From Gluconacetobacter asukensis (GTDB taxonomy: Bacteria; Pseudomonadota; Alphaproteobacteria; Acetobacterales; Acetobacteraceae), in the NCBI RefSeq assembly GCF_014174375.1, contig NZ_JABEQE010000007.1, forward strand, positions 62,001 through 126,000: DNA of 64,000 bases, given 5' to 3'. Positions 11,000 through 51,270 of this stretch are shown here, one piece after another. Made by a program: the position numbers and the translations under genes. Positions within the stretch are counted from its first letter, which is position 1, and each line of letters starts with the position of its first letter. A model generated the notes under the pieces. The model saw only the letters and a program-made list of their open reading frames with translations, was not told where the DNA came from and did not search any database.

Positions 11000-12289
11000 T
11001 CAGGTCGCGAAATTGAGGACGCTCAGGCGTTGCCGGTCGAAGCGGCCGGGATCGTAAGGCATCGGGTCGATGAAGGGTGCCTCGCCCGCGATCCGTTCGG
11101 CGCAGAGCCGGCCGGTGACGGGGCCGAGCGTGAAACCCTGATGGGCGTGACCGAAATTCAGCCACAGGCCGGGATGCCGCGCGCACGGGCCGAGGGCGGG
11201 CAGCATGTCCGGCAGGCATGGGCGCGCGCCACGCCAGGGGGCTGCGTCGAGCGGCTTGCCGATGGGTAGCAGGGTGCGGGCGATCGCGATGCTTCGCGTG
11301 ATTTGCCGGGTCGCGGCGGGGGCCTCGCGCCGTGCGAATTCGGCCCCCGTGGCGATCCGCAATCCGGATGGCGTCGGAATCATGGCCACACCCTGTTCGG
11401 TCAGCAGCATGGGCGTCGCAAGGGCGCCGTCCAGCGCGACATGCATATGGTAGCCACGCTTGACGAACAGCGGAAAGCGATATCCCAGCGGGCGCAGGAC
11501 CATGTCGCTCCACGGACCGAGGCAGATGACGGCGGTTTCGGCATCCAGGTCGCCGTCCTCGCCCGTCACGCGCCAGCCGGCGCCGTGGGGCCTGAGGGTC
11601 TGCGCATCCCCCGTGGCCAGCGTGCCCCCGGCAGCTTCGAACCCCCGGGCATAGGCTTTGACCAGGCCGCCGGGATCGGAGACGGCAAACGGCGATGTCC
11701 AGTGGATGGCACCGGCAAGCTGCCGCTGCAAGGTGGGTTCTTCCCGCGCAAGCGTGGCGCCGTCCAGGACGGTGTGGGGGACGCCGAAGCGTTCCGCGAC
11801 CTCCTTTGCGTGGTGCAGGGCCGTCTTCATGGTGGCCTGGGATTGGAATATCTGCTTCCAGCCGCCGGCCCGCATCATTCCCGTGGCATTGGCCTGCGCC
11901 GCCATGGCCTGGTGTTCGGCCAGGCAATGGCGGACCATGCGTTCATAGGCCATGCAGATAGGATCGTACCGGCCGGGAAGGGAATTCCAGAAATACCGGG
12001 CGAGCATCGGGGCCAGCGTCGGTAGATCGCGGGCGCGCCATGCGGTATCGTTGCCCATGCCGAATGCGATGCGGGCCAGCCGTCCGGCATCCATCGGAAA
12101 CGCGTATGGCATGACGGCTTCGCGCTGGATCAGGCCCGCATTCCCGAACGATGTCTCGTTCCCCGGCACGCGGCGGTCGACGAGCACGACATCGAAGCCA
12201 CGCTGGCGCAGATGCCAGGCGGTCGCCGTTCCCACCATGCCCGCGCCGAGAACGATCGCGCTGCGGCCTTTTGCCTGCCCATGGACCAT
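11000..12289 (-). CDS. dadA: D-amino acid dehydrogenase small subunit-like FAD oxidoreductase
   Basis: A 429-residue DAO-superfamily flavoprotein of the DadA type, oxidising D-amino acids to 2-oxo acids with electrons passed to the respiratory chain. The FAD motif G-A-G-M-V-G is at 15-20 and the conserved C-terminal FAD-contacting segment (F-G-H-A-H-Q-G-F-T-L-G-P) near the end, the normal DAO order. The ATG at 12289 is preceded by AAGGAA; a TTG ten codons upstream is rejected. It lies 78 bases downstream of an Lrp-family gene in the same direction, which may co-regulate it. Substrate range unknown; DadA-like proteins also oxidise glycine, sarcosine or hydroxyproline epimers. Confidence 0.85.
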   Translation of the reverse strand: MVHGQAKGRSAIVLGAGMVGTATAWHLRQRGFDVVLVDRRVPGNETSFGNAGLIQREAVMPYAFPMDAGRLARIAFGMGNDTAWRARDLPTLAPMLARYFWNSLPGRYDPICMAYERMVRHCLAEHQAMAAQANATGMMRAGGWKQIFQSQATMKTALHHAKEVAERFGVPHTVLDGATLAREEPTLQRQLAGAIHWTSPFAVSDPGGLVKAYARGFEAAGGTLATGDAQTLRPHGAGWRVTGEDGDLDAETAVICLGPWSDMVLRPLGYRFPLFVKRGYHMHVALDGALATPMLLTEQGVAMIPTPSGLRIATGAEFARREAPAATRQITRSIAIARTLLPIGKPLDAAPWRGARPCLPDMLPALGPCARHPGLWLNFGHAHQGFTLGPVTGRLCAERIAGEAPFIDPMPYDPGRFDRQRLSVLNFAT

Positions 12290-45311: not shown

Positions 45312-45475
45312 TATAAGGGGCCGTCCATCCTGGTGGAGCCGACGGCCAGGGGGAATCCGGGTGGAATGGTTGCCCGACCGCGCGGATTGAAGGTGGACTT
45401 CCATCCGGCCAACATACAATATCGTGATCGTAATTGATCTCTGTATGGAATGACCGACAAGCGCGGAGTTTTCGA

Positions 45476-46666
45476 ATGACGACGATGATCCCCAAGGAGG
45501 GCCGGGAAGATTTGCTGGAGCGCGGTTATTCCCGCCGCCAGTTCGGCCGGATCGCAGCCCTGCTTGGCATGCCGGTGGCTGCGGCGGCTGCACTGCCGCA
45601 CTTGGTGGGACAGGCTCGGGCTGTTGCTCCTGCGATCCCCGAGATGCATCGGCCCGATAAATCCGGCATGGTGCGTATTGCCTCCAACGAATGCTGGACC
45701 GGCCCGTTCCCGTCCGCCGCCGAAGCCGGTGCTGCGGTGATCAAGGAGGGAAACCGTTATGAGCCCTCGCATCTTCGGGACAATTTGATCGATACGGCGG
45801 CCAAGGTCGAGGGCCTGCCCGCCACGCATATCTTGCCGTGGCCGGGGTCGAGTGATCCGCTTTCGCGTGTTGTCGTCACATTCTGCTCGCCCACGCGGGG
45901 ATTGGTCACGGCCGATCCGACTTTTGAGGCGGCCTGGCGAACGGGAGCGTGGTTGAACGTCAAGGTGACCAAGGTGCCGCTGAGCGCGCGGAACAATTAT
46001 GCCACCGACGTGCGGGCCATGCTCAAGGCAGATCCTAATGCCGGCCTGTATTATATCTGCTCGCCCAATAACCCGACCGGTACGTTGACGCCGATCGAGG
46101 ATATTGCGTGGCTGGTGGACAACAAGCCGGCGGGTGCCGTGGTTGTTGTGGACGAAGCCTATCTGCACTTTGCGGGGACGAAGAGCGCGGCATATCTTGT
46201 GGCCCAGAACAAGGATGTTGTCGTTCTGCGCACATTCTCGAAGCTGTTCGGGATGGCGGGTTTGCGCCTGGGATTCAGTTTCGCGCGGCCGGACCTGCAT
46301 GCGCGCATGATGCGTTATGACGGGCAGAGCCAGAGCGGCACCCTGTCGATCGTCGCCCTGGCAATCGGTGCGTCGAGCCTGGCTCAGGCTGAGAATATCG
46401 TGGCACGCCGCAAGGAGATGATTGCCGCGCGCGAAGAGACGTTCGATTATCTGCGCAAGCGCAAGATCGCGTTCATCCCCAGCAACGCCAACATGTTCAT
46501 GGTAAACTGGAACCAGCCTGCTCGCCATGTGAAGGAACAGTACGCAGCGCAGGGGATCGATATCGGTCGCAGCTGGCCGATCTGGCCCAATATGTCGCGT
46601 ATTACGGTCGGATCGGCTGACGAGATGAAGAAATTCTGCGCGGCGACCGACAAGGTCTTCGCCTGA
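45476..46666 (+). CDS. Tat-exported PLP aminotransferase (HisC-like, fold type I)
   Basis: A 396-residue class I/II aminotransferase with a twin-arginine signal: Ser19-Arg20-Arg21-Gln-Phe followed by an Ala-rich hydrophobic segment to about residue 50. Catalytic Lys256 in T-F-S-K-L-F-G-M-A-G-L-R, Asp226 in V-V-D-E-A-Y and P-N-N-P-T-G at 197-202 show an intact PLP site. The ATG at 45476 has GGAG at 7 bases; a start 14 codons upstream would bury the signal. Export of a PLP transaminase to the periplasm is unusual. The neighbouring Tat flavoprotein and cytochrome c suggest periplasmic amino-acid metabolism. Substrate unknown. Confidence 0.88.
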   Translation: MTTMIPKEGREDLLERGYSRRQFGRIAALLGMPVAAAAALPHLVGQARAVAPAIPEMHRPDKSGMVRIASNECWTGPFPSAAEAGAAVIKEGNRYEPSHLRDNLIDTAAKVEGLPATHILPWPGSSDPLSRVVVTFCSPTRGLVTADPTFEAAWRTGAWLNVKVTKVPLSARNNYATDVRAMLKADPNAGLYYICSPNNPTGTLTPIEDIAWLVDNKPAGAVVVVDEAYLHFAGTKSAAYLVAQNKDVVVLRTFSKLFGMAGLRLGFSFARPDLHARMMRYDGQSQSGTLSIVALAIGASSLAQAENIVARRKEMIAAREETFDYLRKRKIAFIPSNANMFMVNWNQPARHVKEQYAAQGIDIGRSWPIWPNMSRITVGSADEMKKFCAATDKVFA

Positions 46667-46777: not shown

Positions 46778-47248
46778 CTATTTTGAAGGCGATGTGTCGG
46801 GTTGTATGGTCAGTGCGGGAAATTTGAGGGATGCCTGACGTTTTTCCGTGATCGGCAATGCGGTCTTGGCTGGAGACGCGCCGTTTTCACGCATGAGAAA
46901 CGCGACCAGGGTGGTGGCATCTTCCGGCGACAGCGTGCCGGGGGCCATCAGGGGCATGGCGCGTTGGATATAGCCTGTCAGGCGAGAAAGGGGTGTTCCG
47001 GCCCAGCTTGCCACCAGCCGTCCTTTGAGGGACGGCGTCTGGAAATTTCCACTCAGATCGGCGCCATGGCACATGGCGCAGGCTCTCTGGTAGAGATCCG
47101 CTCCGCTTTGCGCCTGCTCGGCGGTGAATGATGGAATCGACGAGGCTGCGGGCCTGGCGGCGTGAAGCGGGGAGGGGGAGGCGACGCATAGGGCCATTGC
47201 CCCCACTATGCCTGACGGCATGAGGCGGAAAAATTGCTTGCGAGGCAT
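46778..47248 (-). CDS. Periplasmic c-type cytochrome
   Basis: A 156-residue mono-heme class I cytochrome c. Sec signal peptide ending near residue 30 (L-H-A-A), heme motif Cys57-Ala-Met-Cys60-His61, and axial Met in M-P-L-M-A-P-G (98 or 101). It lies 3 bases after the D-amino-acid-oxidase-like gene in the same operon and probably takes electrons from that flavoprotein to the respiratory chain, as cytochromes do for alcohol and aldehyde dehydrogenases in acetic acid bacteria. Confidence 0.92.
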   Translation of the reverse strand: MPRKQFFRLMPSGIVGAMALCVASPSPLHAARPAASSIPSFTAEQAQSGADLYQRACAMCHGADLSGNFQTPSLKGRLVASWAGTPLSRLTGYIQRAMPLMAPGTLSPEDATTLVAFLMRENGASPAKTALPITEKRQASLKFPALTIQPDTSPSK

Positions 47249-47251
47249 GGG

Positions 47252-48529
47252 TCAGCCTTCCGAAAGGGGCGAACGGGCGAACAGGTCTGCCAGAACCTTG
47301 ATGGCCCGTTCCGATTCGGAGCGGTCTGGATGTTCGAAGGAATTTCCGACGCTGCCCATTTCGCCTTCGTTATTCAGGTCGTATGCCTGAACCATCAGCC
47401 CATCCGTCTTTGAGACTGCTGAGGCGCCCTGATAATGCAGGCCGTAAGGAAGGTCCGGACGGGGGGGCAGCCAGGCGGTCTGTCCCCTTACGGGGATCAG
47501 GCTCTTGTCGTTCCACCAGTCGCGTGCCGCATAGCCGGGGCAATTGATGATGATCTTCTCCGGCAGGGATGTCAGTTCGCTGGGGTCGTGGAATTCCCGG
47601 ATCACGACATGGCCACCCGCCTGGAAGAATTCCGACATCAGCAGATGCCCATAGGAGGCGAAATTGTAGAGCATGAGGGTGTTGCGCTTGGCATAGGGGG
47701 CGGCAAAGGGATTTTCCGACGGGTGCAGTTCTTCAGCCGCCGGCACGATATCCTTGATGCGATCCGAGTAGCGCGCGAACTCCGTGCCATGCTGGGGCAT
47801 GCCAGTGGATGCATAATCGCCCGTGCGGCCATCCGGACTTTCCTCGTGGGGTGTATTGAACGGCCGGTCGGACAGCACAAAATGTTCGATGAATTCGACA
47901 GGGTTGCCGGGAAGGCCGAGATAGTCGCGATAGGTGGCCCACGATATCCGCGCCATCTTTTCCCACAGATCGGCGAAGCCCGGCCCTGCCGGCGCCGTCA
48001 GGGAGACGCGGGAATCCGGCGTCCAGCTGCCATTGGCGCGAACCGAGCGGGTCCTGGGAAGGAGGTCCTTGGTATAGATCGTGACGTCGAACCCGGCGCG
48101 TTGCGCCGTCAGGGCGGTGGTGAGGCCTATGATGCCGCAGCCGATCACCGCGACCTTGCGTTGCAGGGTGGTAGAGACCTTCTCGACCACCAGACTCGCC
48201 GATCCCCAGGAAAGGGACCACCCGCTGCCACCATGTCCGTAATTATGGAAAACGAGCTTGCTTCCCACATGTTCGACGTCAAACCGAGGCCCCATCGGAC
48301 GGAAAGGGCGCAGGCACACCTTGATGTCGGTGATCTGGTCGGCCCGCAGGTCGAATGGCTGAAGCCTGATACGCGGCTTCTGCGGCGTGAGGGCCTGAGT
48401 AGGAGAGACAGATGGAGTCTGGGCATGGAGGAGGCGGCTGCCTGCGAGGGCCCCGACGAGACTACAGGCGGAGGCGCCTGCGACAAGATGCCTCCGCCCG
48501 ATATTTCTGTTTCGATTGGTCATATGCAC
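47252..48529 (-). CDS. Tat-exported D-amino acid oxidase-like flavoprotein with permuted domain order
   Basis: A 425-residue DAO-superfamily protein. The N-terminus has a Tat-like signal (G-R-R-H-L-V then an Ala/Leu segment, cleavage near L-H-A-Q). Residues 74-78 (R-P-F-R-P) and 95-101 (H-N-Y-G-H-G-G), then W-G-S-A, match the C-terminal FAD- and substrate-contacting end of canonical DAOs. The Rossmann G-C-G-I-I-G follows at 130-135. The C-terminus ends after the R-G-Q segment without a second G-H-G-G. So the last ~80 residues of the standard fold have moved to the front. Probably oxidises D-amino acids in the periplasm with cytochrome c as acceptor. Start at 48529; Met3 is also possible. Confidence 0.8.
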   Translation of the reverse strand: MHMTNRNRNIGRRHLVAGASACSLVGALAGSRLLHAQTPSVSPTQALTPQKPRIRLQPFDLRADQITDIKVCLRPFRPMGPRFDVEHVGSKLVFHNYGHGGSGWSLSWGSASLVVEKVSTTLQRKVAVIGCGIIGLTTALTAQRAGFDVTIYTKDLLPRTRSVRANGSWTPDSRVSLTAPAGPGFADLWEKMARISWATYRDYLGLPGNPVEFIEHFVLSDRPFNTPHEESPDGRTGDYASTGMPQHGTEFARYSDRIKDIVPAAEELHPSENPFAAPYAKRNTLMLYNFASYGHLLMSEFFQAGGHVVIREFHDPSELTSLPEKIIINCPGYAARDWWNDKSLIPVRGQTAWLPPRPDLPYGLHYQGASAVSKTDGLMVQAYDLNNEGEMGSVGNSFEHPDRSESERAIKVLADLFARSPLSEG

Positions 48530-48600: not shown

Positions 48601-51270
48601 TCAGAATGTGGCATTCACGCGCCCGTAATAATATCCACCTGTGATGGGGACCTGTGACGAGCTGGCGTCATACACGGCGGTGCCGCCGCTATTGAGGATG
48701 TCTGGCAGCCGGCGCGGGCGCACATTGAAGACGTTATTCGCGCCAACCGCGAAGTGCCAGTGGCGGTCGAAGCGATAGCCGATTTCGAGATCCGTCAGCC
48801 AGCGCGGCGTGTTCTTGAACTGGCCGAAGCAGGAATTGGAGTAGCGTAGGGCTCCGCCGCTTGCGCAGGTGAGCGTGCCGTTCGTCCAGTCCTGATAGGT
48901 CATCATATCCGTCGTTTCGCCGTAGCGGGTCTGGCGCACGTTGATGTCCCATTTCCCGATCGTATAATACGCGTTCAGGATGATCTTGCTGCGCGGATAG
49001 GCGGTGGTGAGATAGCCGATGGTCTGGGCATTGAGCAGGGACGTACCATTCGCGGACGTGGCGGCATGATGCAGGCGCGTGCGGTTCAGGTCCAGCGCCA
49101 TGGAGAGCATCAGGTTGCCGTAACGGTGCAGGTGGAACGTGTAATCGGCCTTGATATCGAGGCCCTGGGTGCGTGTGCTGCCGATATTGGCGAAATAATA
49201 GGCCGAGACGTTCTGCGGATCGATATCGTTGACCGGGAGGGCGTAGCCCATCGCCTGGATCGCGTTGATCGCGGTCAGCCCCTTGGTCACGCCGCCCTGG
49301 CCGATACGGTTGCGGAGGTTGATCTGATAGACGTCCGCTTCGACATGGAAGCCATCAACCGGTTCGACGACCAGGCCGCCGCTGGCATTGACCGAATATT
49401 CCGGTTTCAGCGGCTGGGCGCCGAGAAGCGCGGCCGCGGCGGAGCTGACGGGGAGCAGGCCCGCCGCGCCTGTCGGGCTGACGCTCATGGTGCTGAAATG
49501 CTGTTCCGCCATCGTGGGGGCGCGGAAGCCCGTGCTGATGGTGCCGCGCACGGCGATCCGTTTCGTGATGTCGTAGCGGGTAGAGACCTTGCCGTTCTGG
49601 GTATTGCCGACATCGGTGTAATGCTCGAAACGTCCGGCGAAATCGAGATCCCAGTTCTTCAGGAGACGGAAATCGCCGTCGATATAGGCGGCCCAGATAT
49701 CACGGCTCCAGTTGCCGGCACTTTGCGGTGCGATGCCGACATAGCCCTGCGTGCCGCCGACTTCGTAGGAGGCGGGTTCGCCGGCCACGATTTCGTAGGT
49801 TTCCAGGCGATGTTCGCCGCCAAAGGCCAGGGTCATCGGCACGGTGTGGAAGATGTCGATATGCCGCCGGAAGTCCAGATTGTTGGTCCACTGGGCGTTG
49901 CGGTAGCTCTGGGTGTGTACCGTGGTTGGCGAATAGCCGCAGCCGGTGGTTGAGATGTTCGCGACGTTACCGTTGTTGCATCGGCTGCTCAGCAGGCCCG
50001 GATTGGCTGTGTGCTTGTTGCCGATATTGTCCTCATCCGCGCCATACTGGGTGCTGAGGTCCCAGTCGAACCCGAGGAAATCGTGGCCCTTGATGCCGAG
50101 CATGGCCGCATAGTCATTTTCCTCGATCGTTTCCAGAGGCGAGAAGCCGGCGGGGTAGAGCGTCGGCGCGATGGTCGGAATGCGGTAGTTCTGGATCGCT
50201 TCCGCATGACGGTGGCCGTAGGTGATCTGCCCGTAGAAATCGACTTTCTCGCCGATCGGCTTTCCGAAATCGATGCCCAGATTCTCCCGCGTTTCCTCCG
50301 GCGTGCTCATGATCTTGTTCGAGTCGAGGGGAAGTTTGAGCGGGTTGGCGACGATGCCATTATAATAGCCGCTGGTGGTGGCCCCTTGCGGCCAGTAGCC
50401 GAGAAGACGGTGGTCCTTGGTACCTTTCGGAACGAAATGGTCGGTGTGGTAGACCTGTCCGCTCAGATGCATGTAGCCGTCATTGCCGAGCTTGAACCCG
50501 CCGTCGGCGTTGACCTGATATTGCCAGCCGTCGCCGTTATAGGCGTTCGCGCCGGTCTGTGCCGAAACGTTCAGGCCGTGGCTGGTCTTCTTGGTGATGA
50601 TGTTGACCACGCCGGCAATGGCGTCCGAGCCGTACATGGCCGCCGCGCCATCTTCCAGTACCTCGATATGGTCGATCATGTTGGCGGGGATCATGTTCAG
50701 GTCGACGCCGGTTGCGCCGAAGCTCGGACCGGAGTTCTGGATGATGTTGGCCGTCACGTGGCGGCGTTTGCCATCCACCAGGACGAGAACCTGGTTGGGG
50801 TTGAGGCCACGCATGCGGATCGAGGAGGTAAGGGCTGCGGTGTCGCTGCCTTTGGCCTGGATGTTGATGGAGGCATAGGTGCGCGTCAGCGCGTCTGCCA
50901 GGTTCAATTGTCCTGAACGGGTCAGGGTGGCCGCGGTCACGACCGAGACCGGCGAGGTACTCTGGCGGGCGTGGCGGTTGCTGTCGTGGGTGCCGGTCAC
51001 GATCACGGCTTCGCCCGCATCGGGCGGTGCCTGATAGGGAGCGACGGGGGGCGCTACAGTGGGAATGGGAGCAGGGGGCACCCCGGCGGAAGCGGCGGGC
51101 GTGCTGGTCACTTTCCGGCTCTTCGTGGCAGGGCGATGGCCGGTTGTGGAGGCTGCGGACGTCGTGGCGGTCTGAGCGATCGCGCTGGCGACGTCGCACT
51201 GGATGGCAAGAATGGTAGCTGCGATCAGGCTTCGCCTTAGGGTCATAGAATTACTGTGCTCCCGCGCCAT
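48601..51270 (-). CDS. TonB-dependent outer-membrane receptor 2
   Basis: An 889-residue TonB receptor. A signal peptide (cleaved near A-I-A-Q) and a Thr/Pro/Ala-rich spacer precede a plug with S-I-R-M-R-G-L-N-P-N-Q-V-L-V-L-V-D-G-K-R-R-H and the D-A-I-A-G-V-V-N-I-I-T-K motif. The barrel ends A-T-F with the terminal Phe of outer-membrane proteins. An internal Met at 51246 is an alternative start; neither has a strong Shine-Dalgarno. It lies upstream of the DAO-like gene in the same direction and could import its substrate. The peptide or siderophore-like ligand is unknown. Confidence 0.93.
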   Translation of the reverse strand: MAREHSNSMTLRRSLIAATILAIQCDVASAIAQTATTSAASTTGHRPATKSRKVTSTPAASAGVPPAPIPTVAPPVAPYQAPPDAGEAVIVTGTHDSNRHARQSTSPVSVVTAATLTRSGQLNLADALTRTYASINIQAKGSDTAALTSSIRMRGLNPNQVLVLVDGKRRHVTANIIQNSGPSFGATGVDLNMIPANMIDHIEVLEDGAAAMYGSDAIAGVVNIITKKTSHGLNVSAQTGANAYNGDGWQYQVNADGGFKLGNDGYMHLSGQVYHTDHFVPKGTKDHRLLGYWPQGATTSGYYNGIVANPLKLPLDSNKIMSTPEETRENLGIDFGKPIGEKVDFYGQITYGHRHAEAIQNYRIPTIAPTLYPAGFSPLETIEENDYAAMLGIKGHDFLGFDWDLSTQYGADEDNIGNKHTANPGLLSSRCNNGNVANISTTGCGYSPTTVHTQSYRNAQWTNNLDFRRHIDIFHTVPMTLAFGGEHRLETYEIVAGEPASYEVGGTQGYVGIAPQSAGNWSRDIWAAYIDGDFRLLKNWDLDFAGRFEHYTDVGNTQNGKVSTRYDITKRIAVRGTISTGFRAPTMAEQHFSTMSVSPTGAAGLLPVSSAAAALLGAQPLKPEYSVNASGGLVVEPVDGFHVEADVYQINLRNRIGQGGVTKGLTAINAIQAMGYALPVNDIDPQNVSAYYFANIGSTRTQGLDIKADYTFHLHRYGNLMLSMALDLNRTRLHHAATSANGTSLLNAQTIGYLTTAYPRSKIILNAYYTIGKWDINVRQTRYGETTDMMTYQDWTNGTLTCASGGALRYSNSCFGQFKNTPRWLTDLEIGYRFDRHWHFAVGANNVFNVRPRRLPDILNSGGTAVYDASSSQVPITGGYYYGRVNATF

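Follow-up and report, generated by a model that had tools for sequence, protein, structure and literature searches.

The gene at 47252..48523 (minus strand) of the window, as we call the whole stretch of 64,000 nucleotides analysed, almost certainly encodes a circular permutation of the fold of the D-amino acid and D-aspartate oxidases (DAAO/DASPO), as judged from its sequence and from a predicted structure. Such a permutation had been proposed in a preliminary description of this DNA, and the proposal is now supported by the sequence itself, by profile searches, by the predicted topology, by a canonical control and by 47 relatives. As a whole the observations are best explained by a natural permuted DAAO/DASPO fold in a Tat-exported, periplasmic, amino-acid-oxidising FAD enzyme, a reading that we consider probable.

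The frame is open throughout 47252-48529 (minus strand), and the product would have 425 amino acids if the GTG at 48529 were used as the start. The ATG at 48523, giving 423 amino acids, is the likely start, since the close relatives begin with MTNRNR..GRR. All the features described here for this gene lie on the minus strand. A Tat-type signal peptide (MTNRNRNIGRRHLVAGASACSLVGALAGSRLLHA, 48422..48523) was recognised by reading the sequence, and its RR and hydrophobic stretch are conserved in the relatives; its cleavage site is a prediction. The transposed block, residues ~59-122 (48164..48355), corresponds to the C-terminal quarter of a canonical D-amino acid oxidase (DAO), that is three strands and the last helix (Pfam DAO 301-352, 320-377 of PDB entry 7ct4, E-E-E-H in the model). 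In this block the RPFRP motif starts at residue 74 with Arg74 (48308..48310), which aligns with position 283 of 1dao and is thus the equivalent of the substrate carboxylate-binding Arg283, while HNYGHGG occupies residues 95-101 (48227..48247), Gly101 being aligned with Gly313 of DAO. The FAD-binding Rossmann motif GCGIIG follows at residues 130-135 (48125..48142), within residues 124-417 (47279..48160), which correspond to the canonical DAO from its N-terminus up to the helix preceding the RPxRP strand (Pfam DAO 1-297, 7ct4 17-301). A second motif of the RPxRP/HNYGHGG type was not present at the C-terminus of the protein (..DRSESERAIKVLADLFARSPLSEG). The preliminary description had given exactly these residue numbers for the motifs ahead of the Rossmann motif and had seen no C-terminal copy, and both statements hold. 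It had also assigned the usual order to the DadA-type D-amino acid dehydrogenase of the same window (11000-12289, open from 12319), which indeed shows a single uninterrupted DAO match covering positions 2-353 of the 353 of the profile. The DadA resembles the permuted protein as an FAD-dependent member of the DAO superfamily and, as predicted for the latter, as a respiratory dehydrogenase, and differs from it by its canonical order and by the lack of a Tat signal and of HNYGHGG.

The swapped order of the two blocks was apparent in several kinds of sequence comparison. The protein scored 75 bits against PF01266, above the curated cut-off of 27.9, its N-terminal 121 residues alone matching positions 301-352 of the Pfam model (E 5.7e-6) and its residues 125-417 matching positions 1-297. 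When the PDB was searched with phmmer, D-amino acid and D-aspartate oxidases ranked first, residues 70-125 of the query being aligned with the DAO C-terminus and residues 117-358, or shorter pieces, with the N-terminal and middle parts. With A1, a profile built from 26 relatives, 7ct4 was matched in two domains in swapped order, 78-360 on 17-301 (i-E 1.4e-21) and 27-84 on 320-377 (i-E 7.6e-14). In comparison with canonical relatives from Bacteroidota the residues 124-350 mapped first and 55-120 after them. Two homologous blocks are present, each once, in exchanged positions. Since both blocks find their own Pfam DAO matches and the 7ct4 match falls into two swapped domains, a chance motif is excluded. 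A truncated DAO fused to an unrelated N-terminal segment, with a coincidental GHGG, has in its favour only that circular permutations are rare in general. It is contradicted by the Pfam block matches, the 26-sequence profile, where the N-terminal block by itself matches DAO C-termini, and the doubled profile described below, as well as by the retention of this block in 47/47 relatives and its predicted E-E-E-H, which equals the canonical end; we regard it as extremely improbable.

In silico de-rotation of the chain merged the two Pfam DAO stretches of the permuted protein into one (4-374 on 1-352 of 353). With the de-rotated single sequence the phmmer E-values against the PDB were no better and the three matched stretches merely fell into order, so that this comparison appears less informative than the profile, Pfam and doubled-profile tests. 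For the last of these a profile of the canonical relatives (unit 328 columns) was written twice in tandem. The single profile matched every permuted protein in pieces, whereas with the doubled one the permuted proteins were aligned continuously through the junction, a behaviour that is the classical signature of circular permutation. The window protein was matched at 258-379 in one piece (score 87.8, against the separate 46.8 and 32.5 of the single model) and at 440-522. L071 and L022 each gave one match (258-568 and 260-571, respectively), and several relatives covered 258-577 by a single path.

Structure prediction, suggested in the preliminary description as a check, gave a concordant picture. 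The AlphaFold2 model of the window protein, built from a 26-sequence alignment, had a mean pLDDT of 90.9 and a pTM of 0.89; over the transposed block and on to the end of the first Rossmann elements the pLDDT was 94-98. The order of its elements is E-E-E-H, Rossmann fold, substrate domain and terminal helix, i.e. the canonical DAO elements with the last four placed first. A canonical control from Winogradskyella (L034), modelled likewise (pLDDT 89.2), had the same list of elements with E-E-E-H at the end. Human DAO, pig DAO and human DASPO were the top Foldseek matches for the permuted protein and the control alike. The TM-scores (query) were 0.52-0.57 for the permuted protein and 0.85-0.89 for the control, the sequential TM-scores to human DAO being 0.55 and 0.87, respectively; Foldseek keeps the chain order, and the lower values are expected with a quarter of the chain out of order. 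The canonical chain begins with beta1, which carries GxGxxG, and runs through a helix and a loop to the RPxRP strand, then to HNYGHGG and the C-terminal helix. In the permuted chain the old C-terminal helix would be joined to the old beta1 via about five residues, the new ends would fall within the loop that leads into the RPxRP strand, on the side of the substrate domain, and the FAD and substrate sites would be rebuilt out of the same pieces.

A motif and profile check sorted every complete match cleanly as permuted or canonical, and the search for homologues of the same order, likewise proposed in the preliminary description, recovered 47 distinct permuted relatives from Pseudomonadota, Verrucomicrobiota and Myxococcota. 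They occur in Gluconacetobacter, Acetobacter, Kozakia, Niveispirillum and many other alphaproteobacterial families, and beyond the Alphaproteobacteria in one genome of another class of Pseudomonadota, in Pelagicoccus and another verrucomicrobial genome, and in Myxococcota. The distribution is patchy: matches at 1e-20 or better were found in 13 of 289 alphaproteobacterial genomes, and in the host's own family in 6 of 100. The orthologue in Gluconacetobacter aggeris is 97% identical to the window protein. An intact second permuted copy, 67% identical, is carried by the host genome (G000:C2:276996-278228; L105:7988-9235), in which no canonical DAO of the DAAO/DASPO-like family was found. The second copy has its own cytochrome c and adjoins a gene whose product contains a beta-lactamase-like domain (PF13354). 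One might suspect a chimeric pseudogene, or an artefact that arose in assembly or sequencing, because the frame of a close relative, the Gluconacetobacter tumulicola copy (L017:7866-9272), is interrupted in its assembly. Such an origin is contradicted by the intact second copy and by the recurrence of the same order in independent species with 97% identity and across three phyla with 28-60% identity, and its probability is practically negligible.

In a tree of 38 permuted and 22 canonical rows, all set to the canonical order, the two groups were split by one branch with 100% SH-aLRT, also when only the columns filled in at least 92% of the rows were used. The tree, which is unrooted, would fit a single origin of the permutation. 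The canonical bacterial relatives (Bacteroidota, Myxococcota, Actinomycetota and Marine Group II; L028-L057, L112-L118) share 25-30% identity with the window protein over the common blocks and differ from it in having the normal order, no signal peptide and a position on the opposite side of this branch. Two Marine Group II loci (L047 and L054) were considered as tandem or fused intermediates and rejected: their ORFs are plain canonical DAOs, and the extension beyond the GHGG block passes a stop codon.

In human DAO the roles of Arg283, Tyr228 and Gly313 have been described, Arg283 and Gly313 holding the carboxylate and amino groups of the substrate (PMC6279847). The equivalents of these two residues, Arg74 and Gly101, are invariant in the 47 permuted and 37 canonical sequences, and 41 positions of the window protein, including Arg74 and the whole HNYGHGG, are conserved in both groups. 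The N-terminal block is thus the FAD and substrate block of DAO, and neither of the two findings that would have spoken against the preliminary description, a GHGG unrelated to the FAD site or a canonical C-terminal motif, was made. The FAD Rossmann motif, the segments of the substrate domain and the predicted fold elements also agree with the known DAAO/DASPO structures (PDB 7ct4, 1dao/1kif, 2du8, 6rkf), from which the window protein differs by the rotation of its chain order by about a quarter, by its predicted Tat export, the DAAO/DASPO enzymes being cytosolic or peroxisomal, and by the absence of Tyr228 in its clade. Of the family hallmarks, then, GxGxxG, RPxRP with Arg283 and HNYGHGG with Gly313 are present, while Tyr228 and the canonical order are absent. 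None of the curated NCBIfam models was passed by the window protein. Its best single-sequence matches among them were DadA (41 bits) and glycine oxidase ThiO models, and the GxGxxG part by itself is generic, which would be compatible with a permuted member of another, ThiO- or DadA-like branch of the DAO superfamily. Those models (PRK12409, PRK00711, TIGR02352) gave only 26-41 bits against cut-offs of 250.8-494, however, RPxRP...HNYGHGG is typical of DAAO/DASPO, and DAAO/DASPO came first by a wide margin in the profile and structure searches; this alternative is clearly unlikely.

The equivalent of Tyr228 is Tyr in 36/37 canonical sequences and in only 16/47 permuted ones, the window protein having Ser370 there; the basal permuted members L013, L022 and L072 retain the Tyr. 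In the clade of the window protein the LGG(T) segment after this position is altered as well (VQA). Because of these two changes the enzyme may use a substrate other than a typical D-amino acid, and the clade has probably a changed substrate range. The same permuted fold could therefore have drifted from the DAO reaction to another substrate (a hydroxy acid, an opine, an amine or a modified peptide), with which the differing neighbours of the lineages would also agree. The invariance of the Arg283 and Gly313 equivalents, the rank of DAAO/DASPO as the best structural and sequence relatives and a neighbouring Rid gene in Verrucomicrobiota, suggestive of an imine product, make us hold this drift for the less probable course, though one of some weight. 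On balance we favour an enzyme that acts on an amino acid.

An RR pattern ahead of the domain was found by a loose rule in 44 of the 47 permuted sequences, two of these flags (L016 and L061) resting on uncertain frames; one of the three remaining sequences, L012, has a PRRQW variant. Most of the RR patterns precede a hydrophobic stretch, after which a lipobox is frequent. The canonical relatives begin with beta1 itself, and no signal was seen in them. Rotation and export thus appear to go together, and the window protein is very probably a periplasmic FAD enzyme. Export does not require permutation, since exported DAO-superfamily proteins of normal order exist, such as the Foldseek match 3dme, described as exported. 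A divergent permuted member (L126, equivalent to L082:5912-7000; G481) lacks a visible signal peptide, its sequence opening with the DAO block, and may represent a permuted form that stays in the cytoplasm.

DAO belongs to the textbook flavoenzymes and is applied in diagnostics, in the production of antibiotic intermediates and in biosensors; the order of its chain has, to our knowledge, been taken as invariable. Natural circular permutations are known in other folds, such as concanavalin A, swaposin and permuted methyltransferases. A permuted FMN-bind domain has also been reported (PMC11334425). The present case resembles these in that the ancestral termini are joined, the new ones lie in a loop and the fold is kept; they concern different folds, none of them in the DAO family. 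No earlier description of a natural DAO permutation was found in the open-access literature searched for permuted DAO and flavoenzymes. The rotated, exported lineage is a natural test case for the tolerance of a two-domain flavoprotein towards new ends, and for whether rotation is coupled with export; a permuted DAO would also be a scaffold with relocated termini for electrodes or fusions. Annotation with Pfam DAO, in which two out-of-order stretches are reported, conceals that several phyla contain a family of distinct structure.

A gene for a periplasmic mono-haem cytochrome c (CAMCH; 46778..47248, minus strand; PF13442, E 3e-13) starts 3 nt past the stop codon of the flavoprotein. The same arrangement was seen in 14/14 Gluconacetobacter and Acetobacter loci examined, including that of the host's paralogue. 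In the remaining loci compared, from outside the acetic acid bacteria, no adjoining cytochrome c was detected. A general cytochrome partnership of the permuted DAOs was consequently rejected. In 3/3 Verrucomicrobiota loci the permuted DAO is adjoined divergently by an exported Rid (PF01042) protein with two or three PF01042 domains (L022:6451-7776, L023:6532-7851, L120:7301-8575), so that both neighbours are lineage-specific; Rid domains that are both repeated and exported seem unusual on their own account. Imines are deaminated by Rid proteins, among them the iminoarginine released by the FAD enzyme DauA (PMC5619798), hence the Rid neighbour suggests an imine as the product of the permuted enzyme.

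The window protein is most likely a periplasmic FAD amino-acid dehydrogenase or oxidase, for which we infer the substrate and the electron acceptor. The apoprotein would fold with FAD in the cytoplasm, be exported by the Tat route and oxidise a D-amino acid, or a similar alpha-amino acid, to the imine in the periplasm. Hydrolysis of this imine in Verrucomicrobiota probably falls to the exported Rid protein encoded next to the enzyme. In the acetic acid bacteria the operon structure inclines us to the view that the electrons go to the co-operonic cytochrome c, which would make the enzyme a dehydrogenase rather than an O2 oxidase. The preliminary description had supposed that the permutation arose to accommodate a Tat signal and to expose a new terminus to a cytochrome. 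The first part agrees with the Tat-like signal of nearly every permuted member, while the second is not supported, since a downstream cytochrome c, found only in the acetic acid bacteria, cannot be the reason for a permutation that is older and shared. Tentatively, and as a course that we find conceivable rather than probable, one ancient permutation may have given rise to a distinct family of periplasmic amino-acid dehydrogenases that are exported by Tat and in many cases lipid-anchored, the rotation freeing for the export signal an N-terminus otherwise formed by the buried Rossmann strand, with a dedicated cytochrome c being fed in the acetic acid bacteria.

Two further genes flank the flavoprotein and cytochrome c genes in the window. 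Upstream on the same strand a TonB-dependent receptor is encoded (48601..51270, minus strand; PF00593/PF07715), and a convergent neighbour with a weak link encodes a HisC-like PLP aminotransferase (45434..46666, plus strand; NCBIfam PRK09105, 480 bits, above the cut-off), of a family related to the pyoverdine transaminase PtaA. The aminotransferase has a Tat-like signal, an unusual location for a PLP enzyme. Both were rejected as conserved partners, for they accompany the permuted DAO only in close Gluconacetobacter relatives and in one other alphaproteobacterial genus, where the loci L097 and L129 echo that of the window in part. L129 also contains a flavin amine oxidase, with a weak Rid-like match.
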